From contig NZ_FOLC01000006.1 of the NCBI RefSeq assembly GCF_900112135.1, forward strand, positions 62,001-126,000: a DNA stretch of 64,000 bases. Direction: 5' to 3'. Origin of the DNA: Collimonas sp. OK412. Lineage in GTDB: Bacteria > Pseudomonadota > Gammaproteobacteria > Burkholderiales > Burkholderiaceae_D. The notes beneath the pieces are model-generated. The model did no database searches. It had not been told where the DNA came from and worked only from the letters and a program-made list of their open reading frames with translations. This document shows positions 3,125-22,195 of the stretch, one piece after another; position 1 is the stretch's first letter, and each line of letters begins with the position of its first letter. Position numbers and translations under genes: made by a program.

Positions 3125-3202
3125 TGTGGATAACCCTGTGAATAAACCTATGGATAAGCCTGTGATTAAAGCTGTATAAGGCTGTACATAAGCTGTGCAT
3201 TA
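3125..3202. repeat. Tandem array of 12-bp DnaA-box-like units in the parA-parB gap
   Basis: The gap between parA and parB carries repeated copies of TGTGGATAA-like 9-mers. They start at 3125 (TGTGGATAA, the exact complement of the DnaA box), 3137 (TGTGAATAA), 3149 (TATGGATAA), 3161 (TGTGATTAA) and 3173 (TGTATAAGG), exactly 12 bp apart. Decayed units follow at 3183 and 3194. The first two match the TTATNCACA consensus in reverse. All are in the same orientation and the last touches the end of parA. Confidence 0.8.
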
Positions 3203-15367: not shown

Positions 15368-16906
15368 TTATTTAGCGACCGGCATGGTGAATTCCGCGCC
15401 TTTTGAAATGGTCTGCGGCCAGCGCTGCATGATCGATTTATAGCGCGTATAAAACCGCACTCCTTCTTCTCCGTATGCATGCGTATCGCCAAACAGCGAG
15501 CGCTTCCATCCGCCGAAGGAGTGCCACGCCATCGGCACCGGAATCGGTACGTTGATGCCGACCATGCCGACCTCGATGCGCCGCGAAAACTCGCGCGCGG
15601 TATTGCCGTCCGAGGTGAACAGCGCTACGCCGTTGCCGAATTCGTGGGCATTGACCAGGCTCACGGCAGCAGCAAAATCAGGCACCCGGACGATGCAAAG
15701 AACCGGTCCGAAAATCTCTTCCTGGTAGATTTTCATTTCCGGCGTCACCTGGTCGAACAACGATCCGCCAAGGAAAAATCCCTGCTCCAGTCCCGCAACT
15801 TTCAGGCCCCGGCCATCGACCAGCAGCCTGGCGCCGGCAGCAACGCCGCCTTCGATATAAGCTTCGATCTTTTCCTTGTGCACGGCGCTGACCACCGGCC
15901 CCATTTCCGCATCGGCTTCCATGCCGTTCTTGATCTTCAGCGCTTTCACGCGCGGAATCAGCGCTTCTATCAATTTGTCGGCGACATTGCCGACGGCCAC
16001 CGCCACCGATATCGCCATGCAGCGTTCCCCGGCCGAGCCGTAAGCAGCACCCATCAACGCATCCACCGCCTGGTCCAGGTCGGCGTCCGGCATTACCACC
16101 AGGTGATTCTTGGCGCCTCCCAGCGCCTGTACTCTCAGTGGATAAACGCCTTTGCGCTTGGCGCCCTCCTGGTAAATATATTCCGCGATAGGCGTAGATC
16201 CGACGAACGACACCGCCTTCACATCGGGATGCTGCAACAAGGTATCCACTGCCAGCTTGTCGCCTTGCACCACATTGAATACGCCATCCGGCAAACCGGC
16301 CTGGCGGAACAAGTCAGCCATCATCAACGACGGCGACGGATCGCGCTCGGAAGGCTTGAGGATAAATGTGTTGCCGGTCGCAATCGCCATCGGCGCCATC
16401 CACAACGGCACCATTACCGGAAAATTGAATGGCGTGATGCCGGCGGTGACGCCCAGCGGCTGGCGCAGGTTCCAGTTATCGATGCCGCCGCCGATATTGT
16501 CGGTAAATTGCGTCTTCAGCAGATGCGGAACACCGCAAGCAAATTCGACGATTTCCAGGCCGCGCGTCACTTCGCCCTTGGCATCGGAAAACACCTTGCC
16601 GTGTTCCCGCGTAATCGCCGCCGCCAGCGCATCGTGATGCTGCTCCATCAATTCCTTGAACCTGAACATCACCCGCGCACGCTTCAGCGGTGCGGTATCA
16701 GCCCATGCCGGCGCAGCTGCAGATGCGGCGGCAACCGCGGCGTTGACTTCTTCCACGCTGCCCAGCACAACCCTGGCCGAAACCGCGCCGGTGGCCGGGT
16801 TGAACACGTCTTGCAAACGGCCGCTGGCGGATTCTGTCAGCTTGCCGTTGATGTAATGTTGAATGAGCGGAGTCGGGCTGGGCGTCGAATTGAATTCGGT
16901 AGTCAT
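15368..16906 (-). CDS. mmsA: CoA-acylating methylmalonate-semialdehyde dehydrogenase family (MmsA)
   Basis: NAD-dependent aldehyde dehydrogenase that, in this subfamily, forms acyl-CoA from malonate or methylmalonate semialdehyde (valine, inositol or beta-alanine catabolism). The 512 residues show [19 protein letters not shown] and [17 protein letters not shown] (MmsA signatures), [16 protein letters not shown], and the catalytic cysteine C296 in [12 protein letters not shown]. The GTFLG-type C-terminal [21 protein letters not shown] is intact. It is divergent from a LysR regulator 140 bp away, which probably controls it. Other substrates within the family are possible given the neighbouring GMC dehydrogenase. 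Confidence 0.9.
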
Positions 16907-17046: not shown

Positions 17047-17934
17047 ATGGACATTACCCAGCTTCGCGCCTTCCTCACCGTCGCCAGGGAGGGCAACCTG
17101 ACACGCGCAGCCGAACTCCTGCACGTCACGCAACCAGCGGTCAGCCTGCAAATCAAGTCGCTGCAGGCCAGCCTGAACCTGCAACTGTTTACGCGCATCC
17201 CCAGCGGCATGGCTTTGACCGACGAAGGCATCAAGTTGCTGCCATTTGCCGAACGCGCAATCGCCGCCATGGCCGAAATGCGCCAGCAGGCAGAAAGCCT
17301 GCACTCGGACAGCTCGGAAATCCTGAGCGGAAAACTGGCGATCGGCACCATTCTCGATCCTGAATTCATCCGGCTGGGCGCTTTCCTGCAGCGCCTGGTG
17401 GAAAGTTATCCCCAGCTTTCTACACAGTTGCAGCACAGCATGTCTGGCGATGTACTACAGCAAATCAAATCCGGCCATCTCGATGTCGGTTATTACCTCG
17501 GTACGCCCAACAAAAACTTTCACCGGCTCACACTGACACAATTTACTTACTGCGTGCTTGCACCATCCGGCTGGAAAAGCCGGGTTTCCGGAAAAGACTG
17601 GCCGGCTTTGGCCAAACTGCCCTGGATCTGGGCTCCACCCGAGTCAGCCCATCATCGTTTACTCAGCAAAACTTTTGCTCAATACAAAGTCACGCCAAAC
17701 AAAGTTGCGCTGGTCGACCAGGAACCTTCGATGCTTGACCTGGTGAAATCCGGAGTCGGCTTGTCTCTGGTGCGGGAGTCAATTGCATTACGTGAAGCAC
17801 ATGCCCACGGGTTGGTGATTTCCGATACGGTCAATTTATCCACCGAACTTTCGTTTATCACCCTGGAAAAACGCAAGGACGAACCGGTCATCGCTGCAAT
17901 TTTTGCGATATTGCAGTCAATCTGGAAAAACTGA
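17047..17934 (+). CDS. LysR-family transcriptional regulator
   Basis: LysR-type regulator of 295 residues with the N-terminal winged HTH MDITQLRAFLTVAREGNLTRAAELLHVTQPAVSLQIKSLQ, of which LTRAAELLHVTQPAVSLQI is the recognition unit. A periplasmic-binding-protein-like effector domain starts near residue 90 (LAIGTILDPEFIRLG). Divergent from mmsA with a 140-bp shared promoter region, the usual layout for a regulator of the adjacent catabolic gene. The effector is unknown. The origin-like region begins right after its stop codon. Confidence 0.92.
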   Translation: MDITQLRAFLTVAREGNLTRAAELLHVTQPAVSLQIKSLQASLNLQLFTRIPSGMALTDEGIKLLPFAERAIAAMAEMRQQAESLHSDSSEILSGKLAIGTILDPEFIRLGAFLQRLVESYPQLSTQLQHSMSGDVLQQIKSGHLDVGYYLGTPNKNFHRLTLTQFTYCVLAPSGWKSRVSGKDWPALAKLPWIWAPPESAHHRLLSKTFAQYKVTPNKVALVDQEPSMLDLVKSGVGLSLVRESIALREAHAHGLVISDTVNLSTELSFITLEKRKDEPVIAAIFAILQSIWKN

Positions 17935-17996
17935 TGCTTCAAAAGCATCTTTTAGAGAAGAAAACTCGTCCTTTTTGCAAATCCAGCTTCTTCAGC

Positions 17997-18158
17997 TTTG
18001 TATTTAAAGATTTATATATATAAATAGTAGTAGTAGTTAACCACCTGCTTTTCTGTGGATAACTATGAATTTGACTATTCATTCAATAACTTACGGCTTG
18101 GATAAATGCTGAGTAAACCTTGTATCTGGAAAGAACATTTCTTGGATAAAAATGACGG
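17997..18158. repeat. Origin repeat, copy A
   Basis: Left copy of a collinear imperfect duplication of about 160 bp. The first 45 bp (17997-18041) are identical to copy B and contain the AT-rich segment and the TAG triplets. The rest keeps the same DnaA-box positions with scattered substitutions. Its box adjoining the triplets (18054-18062) is a perfect match. Confidence 0.9.
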
Positions 18159-18367
18159 CCTGACGCTTGTCCTGGTTTATTCACATTGGATTCCACTAGT
18201 TATCCAAAGACTTATCCACAACCCTCGTTCTGGATCTCTTCTTTTCTACCGTTGAAATAGATGCATTTTTTGAATCAAGAAAAGAAGGTTTTTGAAAAAA
18301 AGCTGTTTTTATTTCTTTTTGTTAAATATTTTTTTAAAAGCAACTTCAAAAGAAAAGGTTTTTCGGT

Positions 18368-18529
18368 TTTGTATTTAAAGATTTATATATATAAATAGTA
18401 GTAGTAGTTAACTAACTGCTTTTCTGTGGGTAACTGCCTATTTGACCATTCATTCAAGTACTTATGGATTGGATAAAGCCTGAGTAATCGGTGTATCGCA
18501 AAAGAATAGTTCTTGGATAAAAAGATGGC
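18368..18529. repeat. Origin repeat, copy B
   Basis: Right copy, displaced exactly 371 bp from copy A without net indels over about 150 bp. The identical 45-bp core is 18368-18412. The box next to the triplets is degraded here (TGTGGGTAA at 18425-18433), so copy A looks like the stronger initiator-binding unit, while three further boxes follow copy B at 18548-18590. Confidence 0.9.
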
Positions 18530-18728
18530 TGTGGAAAACTATCTCAGATATCCACAATTAAAAAACACGATATCCACAGCTTTATCCACAAAATCCGAAA
18601 ATCGGGCTGTTTGCCTGGGTTTTTGAGCCTCTTGAACCTGTTTTCAAGAAAAATTTTCTCTTGCCTAAATAATGGGCAGCATGAAAGAAGGAAAAAAGCC
18701 TGGACAGGATAAATCCAAACCTTTAATG

Positions 18729-18741: not shown

Positions 18742-18757
18742 TATAAAGGTGGCGAGA

Positions 18758-20059
18758 ATGAGTGATCAACAAACTTTCCTGCGCGACGCCATGCGTCGCC
18801 TGAACCTGACCCGGGACAATTTTTCCGACCGCATCGGCATTCGCAAGCGTGCGTTGGACACCTGGCTGCTTCCGGAAACGTCCAGCGAATTCAGGGTCAT
18901 GCCGGACATTGTCAGCAAATTTGTCGGCGAAATCCTGGCTGCCGAATTGCTTAAATCTGCTTCAACGCAGAGCGTATATGTCAATAAAACAGATGCGCCG
19001 CTCCGCGAGCAGATTTCTTATAACGGCAGGCCCCAGCTGCTGTCGGTCGACCAGTTCTCACGCGATTCACTGGAGCAGCTGTTCCGCGTGACAGACATCA
19101 TGCAGCCCATTGCAAGGCGCCAGAAGGTCTCGCGCATCCTCGAGGGGGCGGTGCTAGCCAATTTGTTCTTTGAAGCCAGCACGCGCACGCGTATCAGCTT
19201 TGGCGCGGCTTTTTGCCGACTGGGAGGCTCGGTGTGCGACACCACCGGCTTTACCTTCTCTTCGATGACCAAGGGCGAGTCGATCTACGACACCAGCCGC
19301 GTCATCAGCGGTTATGCCGATGCGCTGGTAGTCAGGCATCCGGAACAGGGAGCGGTGGACGAATTCGCCCGCGCCACGAATATCCCGGTGATCAACGGCG
19401 GCGACGGGCCGGGCGAACACCCGAGCCAGGCTATCCTCGACCTGTACACCATACAGCGTGAGTTCTCGCGCCTGGGGAAACTGGTCGACGGCGCCCATAT
19501 CGTCATGGTCGGCGACCTGAAGTACGGCCGCACCGTGCATTCGCTGATCAAGCTGCTGGCCCTGTATCGCGGCCTCAGGTTCACCCTGGTGGCGCCGCCG
19601 ACGCTGGAGATGCCGGCCCATATCCTGGAACGCATCGCCCGCGGCGGCCACACGGTGGAGCAATCGGCCTCGCTGGCGCAGGGATTGAAGGGGGCTGACA
19701 TCGTGTACGCAACCCGGATCCAGAAAGAACGCTTCGCCGACGAAGCGATAGAAGGCTACGCCCCCGATTTCCAGATCAACCAGGCGCTGATCGACGCCAC
19801 CTGCGGCGCCGGCACCATCGTCATGCATCCCCTGCCGCGCGATGGCAGGCCGGGCGCCAACGACCTGAGCACGGATCTCAACCACGATCCGCGCCTGGCG
19901 ATCTTCCGCCAGACCGACAACGGCATTCCGGTGAGGATGGCGATTTTCGCCACCCTGCTAGGCGTGGAAAACCAGGTGCAGCATTCGATGCGCGACGTCA
20001 GCTGGCGCTCACCGCACTATGTCGGGCCGGATGACGCGGTATTTGATGGGGTCGCCTAG
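18758..20059 (+). CDS. Aspartate carbamoyltransferase with N-terminal HTH-like extension
   Basis: Catalyses carbamoyl phosphate + aspartate to carbamoyl aspartate, the committed pyrimidine step. The 433 residues exceed the usual catalytic chain of about 310. Residues 1-65 look like a DNA-binding helix-turn-helix (RDNFSDRIGIRKRALDTWLLP, core GIRKRALDTWLLP, then a MPDIVSKFVGEIL helix). The ATCase domain then carries STRTR (141-145), MTKGES, VVRHPEQ, EHPSQAILD, GRTVHS, TRIQKER and HPLPR (from H357), so every substrate-binding motif is present. Start at MSDQQ (AAAGGTGG upstream); a GTG three codons earlier is possible. It stands alone, not with pyrR/pyrC, and begins 167 bp after the last DnaA box. 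A tail of about 25 residues after GVENQ is also extra. Confidence 0.9.
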   Translation: MSDQQTFLRDAMRRLNLTRDNFSDRIGIRKRALDTWLLPETSSEFRVMPDIVSKFVGEILAAELLKSASTQSVYVNKTDAPLREQISYNGRPQLLSVDQFSRDSLEQLFRVTDIMQPIARRQKVSRILEGAVLANLFFEASTRTRISFGAAFCRLGGSVCDTTGFTFSSMTKGESIYDTSRVISGYADALVVRHPEQGAVDEFARATNIPVINGGDGPGEHPSQAILDLYTIQREFSRLGKLVDGAHIVMVGDLKYGRTVHSLIKLLALYRGLRFTLVAPPTLEMPAHILERIARGGHTVEQSASLAQGLKGADIVYATRIQKERFADEAIEGYAPDFQINQALIDATCGAGTIVMHPLPRDGRPGANDLSTDLNHDPRLAIFRQTDNGIPVRMAIFATLLGVENQVQHSMRDVSWRSPHYVGPDDAVFDGVA

Positions 20060-20155: not shown

Positions 20156-22195
20156 CTAGTGCGTTTTCTTTGGACGCAGCGTCTTGCCGGGCGGCGGCGC
20201 CACCGGCTTTTCCTTGGCCAGCGCCAGCAGGCCGGCGCAATCGCTCTGCTGGTCCGGGCTGATATTGATCAATGGCAGCACTGCCGCCACCGGAGCCAGT
20301 ACGCCGAGCGCAATCGCACCGCCAGCCTTCAAGGCCAGCACACCCTTGTCCACCCCTACGTCCGGGTTCTTGAAGCTGCCTGTGACGTGCAGCGGCGACC
20401 TGAGCGAGAAGATGCGCAAGCCCTTGGTCTTCGGATTGATGGTCAGCGCCAGCGACTCCTGGGCGAGATTGACCTGGCCTTCGACATTGATGATGGCGTC
20501 GTCGGTATCCATCACGAAGGTGCGGGCGTCCATCACGCCGTTGGTCACGGCAAAATCGCTGGCCAGGCAATTGAGCTTCACCTGCTTGTCGCCGAACAGC
20601 TTGGAAATCACCACATTGCCGATGTTCAGGCCAGCCGCCTCCAGCAAGAACTTGCTGATGGTGCCTTGGTTGATCAGGGTTTTCAGTTCGCCGTTCGAGC
20701 TGGCCAGCAGGCTGGCCACCGAGTTGCCGACAGCGGACAGAGAGGCGTCGCCGTTTATTTCACCCAGGCTGGCCTGGGCCGACGCCAGCGTCGGGAACAG
20801 CTGCTTGATTTTCAGGTGGCGCGCCGAGATTTTCATTTCCGCCTTGATCAGCTTGTTGCTGCCGTCGAGCTTGATGTTGGAAACCAGGTTGCCGCCAGCC
20901 ACGCCAAAGTTCAACGGCGTCAACGACAGCACACTGTCCTTCAAGTGCAGGTCGGCGACCAGGTCCTGGATCGGCAGGTCCTTGTCGCGGATAATCTTGC
21001 GGCCGGTGAATTTGACGTCGGCATCGATGCTGCCCCAGCGCGCGGTATCGAACTGCTCCACCGGCAGCACCTTGTTGCTCGGCTGCGCCACGCCGTCGCC
21101 ACGATTGGCCTTGCTGGCGTTCGAATCGGCGCCGATCAGCGGCGCCAGGTCCTGCAGCTTGAGCTGGTTGGACAGCAGCGAGCCTTTCAGCAAAGACCGT
21201 GGTTTCTGCGCGATGTATTCCAGCGTGCCGGACAAGTCGCTGGAGCCGACGCGGCCGCTGAATTTATCGTAGGTCCAGTCGCCGCCGGCGCTGTTGAGCT
21301 TGCCGACCAGCCGCCCTTCGGTGGCGAACGGCGGCGTCGCCGGCAGCACGATGCCGGTCAGCGGATACAGGTTCGACATGCTGGCGCCCGACAGTTTCAA
21401 ACGCAAGTCCAGCGCCGCCAGGTCGCTCGGCTTGGTCAGCGTGCCCTGGATGGCAATCGCGGTCTTGCCGATATTGACGCTGGCCTGCAGCGGATAGGGC
21501 GTGGTGGAATTTTGCAGCGACAGCACCGCGCCGGCTTTGCCGCTGCCGCTGACGGCAGCCTTGTTGAACGTGCCGCCGACCTTCCAGCCGATGCCGTAAC
21601 CTTCGGCGCTGGCTGCCGGCAAGCTGTCTATGTCAGCCTTGATATTGAGCTTGCTGATGGGGTCCAGCAACCTCACCGTGCCTTTCGCCAGGGCCAGCTT
21701 TTGCAGTTCCAGCTGCCAGGCTGACGGTCCGCTGGATTTGAACGTCCAGTTATTGTCGCCATCCGGCTTGCGTTCCAGCGCGATGCTTGGCGTATCGAGC
21801 TCCAGCGACGGTATCACGATGCGGTGCGCGAGCAAGGGCAAAGGACTCAATGAAAACGTCAGCTGGCCGATCTCCGCCATGTGCGGGCCGGTCTTGGCCC
21901 AGTCGGGATTGTCCAGCACGATGTCCTTGGCGCTCAGGCGCGGCCAGGGCACCCAGCGGCGCCAGCTGTCGAGGTCGGCCTGCGATTTTTGCCAGGTAAG
22001 CACCAGGTCGCCGCGGATCGCGAAATTGCGTCCGGTGGCCTCGCTGACCCGCTGGTTCAACCACGGCTTGGCGCGGTTCCAGTCGAATGTGAGCAGCAGC
22101 GCCACGCAGAGGGCGATCAAAGCAATCAATGCCGCAATCGACCATAACAGCCATCGAACCGGGCGCCGCAGCGAGGGAAATGTAGAGGCAGTCAT
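20156..22195 (-). CDS. AsmA family protein
   Basis: AsmA-like protein of 679 residues, a bridge-like family implicated in outer-membrane lipid homeostasis. There is one N-terminal membrane anchor (about residues 14-35, WLLWSIAALIALIALCVALLL) and then a long beta-rich periplasmic part. The family start FDWNRAKPWLNQRVSEATGRNFAIRGDL (core RVSEATGRNFAI) follows the anchor, and C-terminal AsmA_2-type repeats end with GSFKNPDVGVDKGVLALKAGGAIALGVLAP (core GSFKNPDVGVD). Monocistronic, with its promoter region (22196-22442) shared with the divergent DUF3300 gene. Confidence 0.9.
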   Translation of the reverse strand: MTASTFPSLRRPVRWLLWSIAALIALIALCVALLLTFDWNRAKPWLNQRVSEATGRNFAIRGDLVLTWQKSQADLDSWRRWVPWPRLSAKDIVLDNPDWAKTGPHMAEIGQLTFSLSPLPLLAHRIVIPSLELDTPSIALERKPDGDNNWTFKSSGPSAWQLELQKLALAKGTVRLLDPISKLNIKADIDSLPAASAEGYGIGWKVGGTFNKAAVSGSGKAGAVLSLQNSTTPYPLQASVNIGKTAIAIQGTLTKPSDLAALDLRLKLSGASMSNLYPLTGIVLPATPPFATEGRLVGKLNSAGGDWTYDKFSGRVGSSDLSGTLEYIAQKPRSLLKGSLLSNQLKLQDLAPLIGADSNASKANRGDGVAQPSNKVLPVEQFDTARWGSIDADVKFTGRKIIRDKDLPIQDLVADLHLKDSVLSLTPLNFGVAGGNLVSNIKLDGSNKLIKAEMKISARHLKIKQLFPTLASAQASLGEINGDASLSAVGNSVASLLASSNGELKTLINQGTISKFLLEAAGLNIGNVVISKLFGDKQVKLNCLASDFAVTNGVMDARTFVMDTDDAIINVEGQVNLAQESLALTINPKTKGLRIFSLRSPLHVTGSFKNPDVGVDKGVLALKAGGAIALGVLAPVAAVLPLINISPDQQSDCAGLLALAKEKPVAPPPGKTLRPKKTH

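Follow-up and report, generated by a model that had tools for sequence, protein, structure and literature searches.

A probable chromosomal origin built as a tandem pair of E. coli-type units in an Oxalobacteraceae bacterium

The chromosomal origin of Escherichia coli, oriC, is laid out in the order DNA unwinding element (DUE), R1, IHF site, left array, right-hand boxes and R4, with R1 and R4 convergent, and its arrays are described in the available text of PMC4451416 as same-direction weak sites 2 bp apart in opposed halves. In origins of the DnaA-box/DnaA-trio (BUS) type, as presented in the accessible parts of PMC8287927 and PMC6669920, trios of the sequence 5'-TAG-3' (3'-GAT-5' on the other strand) lie beside a DnaA box, with an AT-rich tract beyond them. 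The search program published for such elements, in the portion of its description available, accepts a spacer of 0–16 bp between trios and box, permits a longer one only if a second box lies between, and keeps a single candidate for >99% of genomes. In the bipartite origins of Bacillus subtilis and Helicobacter pylori, two DnaA-box clusters lie close together, with the DUE in one sub-region and dnaA between the clusters (PMC8235120, in part).

Here we analyze a window of 64,000 nucleotides (the whole stretch of DNA under study, C11:62001-126000, where C11 is the contig bearing it in a genome of 5.46 Mb and 60 contigs). Judging from sequence comparisons, it quite probably contains the chromosomal oriC of a member of the Oxalobacteraceae, most likely a Collimonas, and this oriC would consist of two E. 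coli-type units in tandem. Each unit shows the E. coli order of elements with convergent R1 and R4, and its weak boxes likewise form opposed arrays with 2-bp gaps. The IHF core of E. coli oriC (NC_000913), at the place which we take it to occupy, starts at offset 27 from R1, as do the IHF-type sites of the window's units; it has two mismatches to the consensus used here and so is missed by a one-mismatch scan. The units differ from E. coli oriC in the distance between R1 and R4 (156–160 bp, against 180 bp in E. coli), in their perfect TAG trios, in their two or three copies per origin, and in their position by lysR and pyrB, where E. coli oriC lies between mnmG and mioC. They share with BUS elements a DnaA box adjoined by three or more trio motifs (TAG four times in both units), but the 17-nt spacer in the window (16–18 nt among the units listed) exceeds the 16-bp limit of the search program as available to us; the trio rule is missed by one base though the predicted working layout is the same, and two or more modules occur per origin here. 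In contrast to the bipartite origins, the window's two close clusters each have trios and an AT tract of their own, and what separates them is no gene but a linker of 135 bp.

Anatomy of the units and their surroundings

The initial annotation of this region reported three perfect DnaA boxes and about ten with one or two mismatches, and our counts bear this out. Positions 17997-18590 of the window hold three perfect boxes, nine boxes when one mismatch is allowed and 14 when two are, against shuffled means of 0.00, 0.18 and 2.47, and none of the observed counts was reached in 500 dinucleotide shuffles of the same 594 bp. The perfect TTATCCACA boxes start at 18054 (minus strand), 18212 (plus) and 18582 (plus). 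Two collinear copies 371 bp apart, also described at that stage, proved to be a 168-bp direct repeat (17985-18152 and 18356-18523) with 85% identity. Both copies hold TATTTAAAGATTTATATATATAAATA and TAGTAGTAGTAG (starts 18025 and 18396), with a DnaA box 17 nt beyond TAGTAGTAGTAG in each (18054 and 18425), so the AT-rich tract, four TAG triplets and DnaA box that had been noted are present in both. The earlier term 'unwinding core' was right about the duplication and too narrow about its content, since each copy follows the layout of an entire E. coli-type origin, with IHF-type site, opposed arrays and R4 included. The tandem units extend from AT tract to R4 over 18001-18220 and 18372-18590, each in the order AT tract, four TAG DnaA-trios, R1, IHF-type site, weak boxes in an 11-bp register, opposed right-hand boxes and R4.

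Unit 1 (17985-18220, plus strand, with its direct repeat) is matched by our unit profile R1 at C11:79995-80222 with E 6e-43, and unit 2 (18356-18590, plus) at C11:80365-80592 with E 2.6e-42, values that are not independent of training because the profile was built partly from these two units. In unit 1, the AT tract, a presumed DNA unwinding element of 4% G+C, occupies 18001-18026 (plus) and is followed by the four TAG trios (18025-18036, plus) and a perfect R1-type box (18054-18062, minus). The IHF-type site ATTCAATAACTTA (18081-18093, plus), with one mismatch to WATCARNNNNTTR, lies at offset 27 from R1. The left array of weak boxes every 11 bp (18097-18149, minus) has starts at 18097, 18108, 18119, 18130 and 18141, with 7, 5, 4, 3 and 7 of nine letters matching. 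The right-hand boxes at 18177 and 18200 (18177-18208, plus) have one mismatch each, the first being one base off the 11-bp register, and the perfect R4-type box (18212-18220, plus) is 158 bp from R1.

An AT-rich, poorly conserved linker (18221-18355) leads to unit 2, whose AT tract (18372-18397, plus) is identical to that of unit 1, so that a tract of 4% G+C, predicted to melt, stands beside an R1-type box in both units. The four TAG trios of unit 2 (18396-18407, plus) are followed by an R1-type box TGTGGGTAA with one mismatch (18425-18433, minus), an IHF-type site ATTCAAGTACTTA with one mismatch, again at offset 27 (18452-18464, plus), and a left array of weak boxes every 11 bp (18468-18520, minus) with 7, 5, 5, 4 and 7 of nine letters matching. 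Two right-hand boxes at 18548 and 18570, one mismatch each (18548-18578, plus), and a perfect R4-type box 157 bp from R1 (18582-18590, plus) complete the unit.

The same anatomy recurs in relatives. Units were called in the surroundings of cluster matches as pairs of an R1-type box and, 150–165 bp on, an oppositely directed R4-type box, neither with more than one mismatch, to which trio and AT-tract filters were applied; 94 units passed in 49 of 51 loci, and box pairs failing the trio or AT filter, such as the third units of G048 and of G144, were left out. The spacing from R1 to R4 was 156–160 bp in all 94 (156 in 21, 157 in 38, 158 in 31, 159 in three and 160 in one). An IHF-type site with at most one mismatch, predicted from sequence, lies between R1 and the left array at offset 26–29 from R1 in 87 of the 94, against an expectation of 0.15. 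The weak boxes oriented like R1 are most frequent at offsets 43, 54, 65, 76 and 87 from R1, an 11-bp register, and those oriented like R4 at 12, 23 and 34 before R4, with offsets blurred where units carry insertions of 1–2 nt; the middle sites of each array are weak. In an alignment of 62 units from 33 genomes, the conserved columns include the AT tract, TAG trios, TWAAC, R1 and R4, together with an IHF-type consensus AATCAAnnACTTA and the regularly spaced weak boxes.

The flanking genes had been given as a LysR gene and an ATCase gene, and domain and family matches agree: a LysR-family regulator (17047-17934, plus; PF03466, PF00126) lies to the left and aspartate carbamoyltransferase (pyrB; 18749-20059, plus; NF008853 above its cut-off) to the right. 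Beyond them are an aldehyde dehydrogenase gene (15368-16906, minus; TIGR01722 above its cut-off), which by synteny marks this locus in many genera, and an AsmA-family gene (20156-22195, minus; PF05170), a second syntenic marker. The par, rsmG, mnmG and atp genes noted as neighbors were placed at 0.7–7.3 kb from the units (atpB, parB, parA, rsmG and mnmG), and dnaA is 57 kb away in the window's genome. Two Collimonas loci are syntenic with the window over nearly the whole 8 kb at ~79–84% DNA identity, the highest of seven named loci compared. Separately, a run of DnaA-box-like repeats with a period of roughly 12 bp, including CTGTGGATAAC, CTGTGAATAAA and CTATGGATAAG, lies between parB and parA (window 3125-3200) and is 86% conserved in G028; it possibly reflects control of the partition genes by DnaA.

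Spread, conservation and history of the copies

We took the window's genus to be Collimonas and its family to be Oxalobacteraceae by inference from named records such as the syntenic Collimonas loci, and sampled 294 genomes of the family from 44 genera. A sequence-only unit profile, whose units were supplied by 33 of these genomes, matches 278 of them at E 1e-4. Zero, one, two and three copies were found in 16, 55, 162 and 61 genomes, respectively, counts that exclude partial matches under 140 profile positions and, given strict filters, may miss weak copies. Two or three units, in tandem or inverted, are present in 223 of the 294 genomes, and 26 of the 44 genera contain a genome with at least two. 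The view that two tandem opening cores in one origin are unusual, expressed in the initial annotation, has to be given up for this family, where doubling is common to most sampled genomes. Two of the 16 genomes with no unit belong to the window's own genus (G102 and G217). One of these, G102, is only 1.7 Mb and yet is rated 99% complete, and a reduced genome of this kind may have lost this origin type.

Among named genomes, a search with the trio-box pattern gives at least 118 loci of up to 8 kb, in genera that include Collimonas, Janthinobacterium, Herbaspirillum, Undibacterium, Glaciimonas, Herminiimonas, Massilia, Duganella and Rugamonas. The 118 listed comprise 70 loci with two units, 29 with three, 18 with one and one with none, arranged as 65 tandem pairs, 29 tandem triples and five divergent pairs, where loci cut by their ends undercount and the trio-box pattern itself selects good units; a subset of 80 has two, three and one units in 49, 22 and nine loci. 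Most of the Janthinobacterium loci listed have three units, and two of the five listed for Herminiimonas have a divergent pair. In g24, units lie on opposite strands ~2.8 kb apart with their R4 ends facing (G128:C1:4,057,295-4,060,357; G195:C17:368,341-371,337), which is a third arrangement beside tandem and divergent.

Constraint was measured as mean pairwise identity in 13 congeneric genomes (of 15, two being without a unit). In units 1 and 2, respectively, identity is 0.974 and 0.964 for the trios, 0.983 and 0.983 for R1, 1.000 and 0.983 for R4, 0.907 and 0.858 for the IHF-type site, 0.828 and 0.950 for the AT tract, and 0.863 and 0.845 for the unit interiors. Identity falls to 0.688 in the linker that joins the units and to 0.638 and 0.681 in the gaps on their outer sides, with 0.836 and 0.821 in nearby coding DNA. 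By this measure both units are kept in the genus, and the DNA between them much less. In a tree of the 94 units, unit 1 of the 13 congeners forms one clade (100/90) and unit 2 another (100/98); because the two are separate clades, the tandem pair is older than the sampled genus. A similar pattern was found in g15, which has three units, and in g30, and in g27 unit 2 is resolved as a clade and unit 1 is so only in part. In the Herminiimonas-like g23, the inverted copies cluster within each genome in all five genomes examined, and copies of several other genomes likewise group together. The inverted arms of G183 are 296 nt long and 98% identical. The likeness of the g23 copies within each genome is apparently what gene conversion would leave.

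In our preferred reading of the locus as a tandem-unit oriC, DnaA would bind R1 and R4 of each unit, and DnaA-ATP would then fill the weak boxes, aided by IHF, which would bend the DNA between R1 and the left array. A DnaA filament would extend from R1 onto the TAG trios and melt the adjoining TATATA tract, allowing helicase loading. These loading, bending, filament and melting steps are drawn from the available text of work on E. coli, B. subtilis and H. pylori (PMC4451416, PMC6669920, PMC8287927, PMC8235120). Either unit is probably able to open the origin, and both would be expected to fire; the retention of both would be under selection, for redundancy or for setting the dose and timing of DnaA.

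It is possible, though in our estimate distinctly the less probable case, that the locus is oriC but only one unit opens, and that the other is a platform for DnaA binding, a partner in looping or a reservoir, on the pattern of bipartite origins. The imperfect R1 box of unit 2 in this genome would fit such a division, as would the B. subtilis and H. pylori precedent of a DUE in only one sub-region (PMC8235120, in part). Against it, the trios, R1, IHF site and R4 have similar identity in both units, and the AT tracts have 0.828 and 0.950; the within-genome clustering of the inverted g23 copies and the near-identical arms of G183 argue in the same direction. More speculatively, two or three autonomous origins might all open, and the number and orientation of units would then be a tuned, heritable setting for initiation, an idea we hold only tentatively. 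If so, each unit may load the helicase of one fork, with paired units giving bidirectional replication, and the inverted units of g23, with unwinding elements facing and apparently gene-converted, would be the clearest case.

Outside the family, an order-wide sample gave profile matches in 223 of 399 genomes at E 1e-3, 211 of them out-of-family. Of these 211, 143 have one match and 68 have two to four, mostly weak, again leaving out partial matches under 140 profile positions; the matches are weaker than in the multi-copy genera of the family, and some of the second ones are incomplete or overlap on the opposite strand. The exact R1-N-R4 pattern, which is too strict for imperfect boxes, was found in only 17 of the 399 genomes (eight in the family and nine outside). 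Close pairs occur, among the matches listed, in families f20, f27, f31, f49 and f51, and doubling may not be confined to the window's family. Since 68 of the 211 have at least two matches, it is uncertain that the history began with a single unit. Opposite-strand unit-like matches were seen in f20, ~5.6 kb apart in G619:C121 and G645:C11 and 1.8 kb apart in G563:C2, and are perhaps another doubled origin. There are also weak, partly incomplete tandem matches ~265–285 bp apart in f27 (G480:C151, G539:C1, G568:C9, G649:C1) and f51 (G493:C1, G551:C123).

The position of the unit relative to dnaA differs among these groups. In 18 out-of-family loci, best matches only, dnaA, presumably followed by dnaN, is inside 14, and in 13 the unit is within 40 bp at the 3' end of dnaA. 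Among 20 family genomes chosen for one or weak copies, dnaA is in eight loci, aldehyde dehydrogenase or LysR in five and neither in seven. In a set of 21 loci drawn largely from multi-copy genera, one or more of aldehyde dehydrogenase, LysR, ATCase and AsmA are present in 13 and none in eight, one of these eight being only a 27% match. The simplest reading seems to be that the origin moved from beside dnaA to the aldehyde dehydrogenase-lysR site and, in some genera, was relocated again afterwards. The unit would originally have lain just past dnaA, moved in the family to the aldehyde dehydrogenase-lysR-asmA neighborhood, and multiplied there or before, the direction, the number of events and the time of doubling being what we infer from present-day loci.

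Nucleotide skew and the competing positions

For a skew test we chose relatives with complete genomes and with dnaA apart from the units, using both raw skew and skew at four-fold sites corrected for gene strand (with a simple ORF caller and genes treated as independent). In two of four genera outside the window's, the corrected switch falls less than 3 kb from the units. The switch of G292 is at 2,078,009 (interval 2,069,123-2,094,170), with unit boxes at 2,076,750-2,077,587, and dnaA, 313 kb off, is rejected with a likelihood-ratio (LR) deficit of 24.4. In G183 it is at 2,497,497 (interval 2,491,049-2,500,165), with units at 2,499,655-2,500,948, and dnaA, 67 kb off, is rejected with a deficit of 56.9. 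The unit locus of G183 is syntenic to the window's, because it is flanked by the same aldehyde dehydrogenase and AsmA genes. G048 is compatible: its wide corrected interval (170-385 kb) takes in the units, which lie at 363.7 kb with a deficit of 2.5, and dnaA, with a deficit of 11.8, is rejected. G030 does not agree, as its corrected switch at 450 kb rejects both the units (11.5) and dnaA (9.2); in raw skew the change sits at 300-340 kb, close to the units (278 kb), and dnaA is at 558 kb. Taken over only the 20-kb stretch bearing the units, the raw skew is lowest 245 bp beyond the boxes in G292 and 271 bp before them in G048. In permutation tests the best raw change point adjoins the units in both genomes (5 and 33 of 5000 permutations as good, respectively), and the raw minimum of G183 lies ~8.5 kb from the units. 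Among the options first proposed for the locus (main oriC, secondary origin or titration site), main oriC is the best supported, by the switches in G292 and G183 and by G048, where dnaA is rejected and the units are allowed.

In the window's own genus, the skew minimum, suggested at the outset as a check, does not favor the units. The raw minimum of C11 at 148,091 is 68 kb past the units (80,300) and ~10 kb past dnaA (137,400), and that of G028 is at 5,208,578 (wrapped), with units at 5,138,400 and dnaA at 5,187,300. The corrected switch is also past dnaA in both (C11 164,233; G028 5,211,528, wrapped), with a weak signal (LR 11 and 13), and it disfavors both sites, with deficits in C11 and G028 of 7.4 and 8.8 at the units and 5.9 and 9.5 at dnaA. 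Skewed hexamers, which were trained on G183 using the unit position so that G183 is no test of them, and KOPS-like octamers leave C11 and G028 just as ambiguous. Next to dnaA, at C11:138,000-148,000, lies a block in which GC skew is strongly negative, with a matching fall past dnaA in G028, and because of this block the raw minimum is displaced from both candidate origins. Since skew in its own genus does not place the origin, the call for the window's genome rests on synteny and orthology, on anatomy and on there being no unit elsewhere.

These minima, 10–21 kb past dnaA and nearer to it than to the units, are what would be expected if replication in the window's genus started at or near dnaA and the units were a DnaA-titrating or initiation-control site of the datA or DARS kind. 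The Herbaspirillum seropedicae genome paper also put the probable origin at dnaA, in the available text of PMC3093359. We nevertheless regard a start at dnaA as improbable. No DnaA-box cluster was found around dnaA, with two boxes before the gene, two after and one inside, compared with nine in the units; the gap before dnaA, which had been named as the place to look for a competing cluster, has one perfect box and one with one mismatch. DnaA titration sites are not known to require an AT tract or trios, and the unit-profile search of the window's genome (G000) finds only the two units. In G183, the syntenic units coincide with the skew switch and dnaA lies far down one limb. Just past dnaA, adjacent perfect and one-mismatch boxes (C11:138,876-138,894) are possibly a relic of an earlier origin beside that gene.

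Less probable again, and in our view very improbable, is that a second DnaA-box cluster in the priA-hemE gap (C11:33,599-34,273) is the origin or a co-origin. It has three perfect boxes within 474 bp in a doubled layout (~465 bp apart) and is 90% conserved in G028, and for Ralstonia pickettii an origin beside hemE has been suggested from sequence evidence (PMC4403523), but no TAG trios or TATATA tract were seen in that gap and the unit profile, matching only the two units in G000, does not match it. The cluster may serve to titrate DnaA, or may be a relic comparable to the origin suggested beside hemE in R. pickettii. Finally, we rejected a mobile or repeated element (among the matches listed, the copies of a genome mostly share a single location), a promoter repeat (DnaA, IHF and AT-tract elements are retained in each copy) and chance clustering (box counts reached in none of 500 shuffles).

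Repeated candidate origin units compared with known cases

To our knowledge, one origin module per chromosome is the rule. Among the papers listed by our searches of the open-licence PMC literature, we found no description of repeated whole origin units of this kind. Elements and mechanism alike are familiar, and the novelty lies in how many whole units there are, how compactly they lie and how long they have been retained, in a family where 223 of 294 genomes have two or three conserved units, spaced in the loci examined within a few hundred to a few thousand bases. Doubled units make it possible to test the effect of extra unwinding elements on firing probability, synchrony and fork direction. 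The loci also offer a natural series for origin movement, from a single unit at dnaA to a moved single unit, tandem doubles and triples, and inverted doubles. Should the units prove to be the origin, a replication start set at dnaA would be wrong by 57 kb in this genome and by ~360 kb in G048. An error of this kind would touch both the placement in the H. seropedicae genome paper (PMC3093359, in part) and the rotation of Collimonas chromosomes to dnaA, a practice seen in the available portion of published work.

More than one origin-like sequence per chromosome has been reported before. The putative double origins of Gao 2015 (PMC4403523) are four cases in which the sequences are 150–882 kb apart or lie by duplicated dnaA genes. 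For Mycobacterium bovis BCG Pasteur, which has an oriC duplication, the available text of PMC2448323 describes two large tandem duplications, of 29.7 and 36.2 kb, in one strain lineage. In contrast to both, the units described here are short, are repeated within ~0.3–4 kb, and are kept across many genera.
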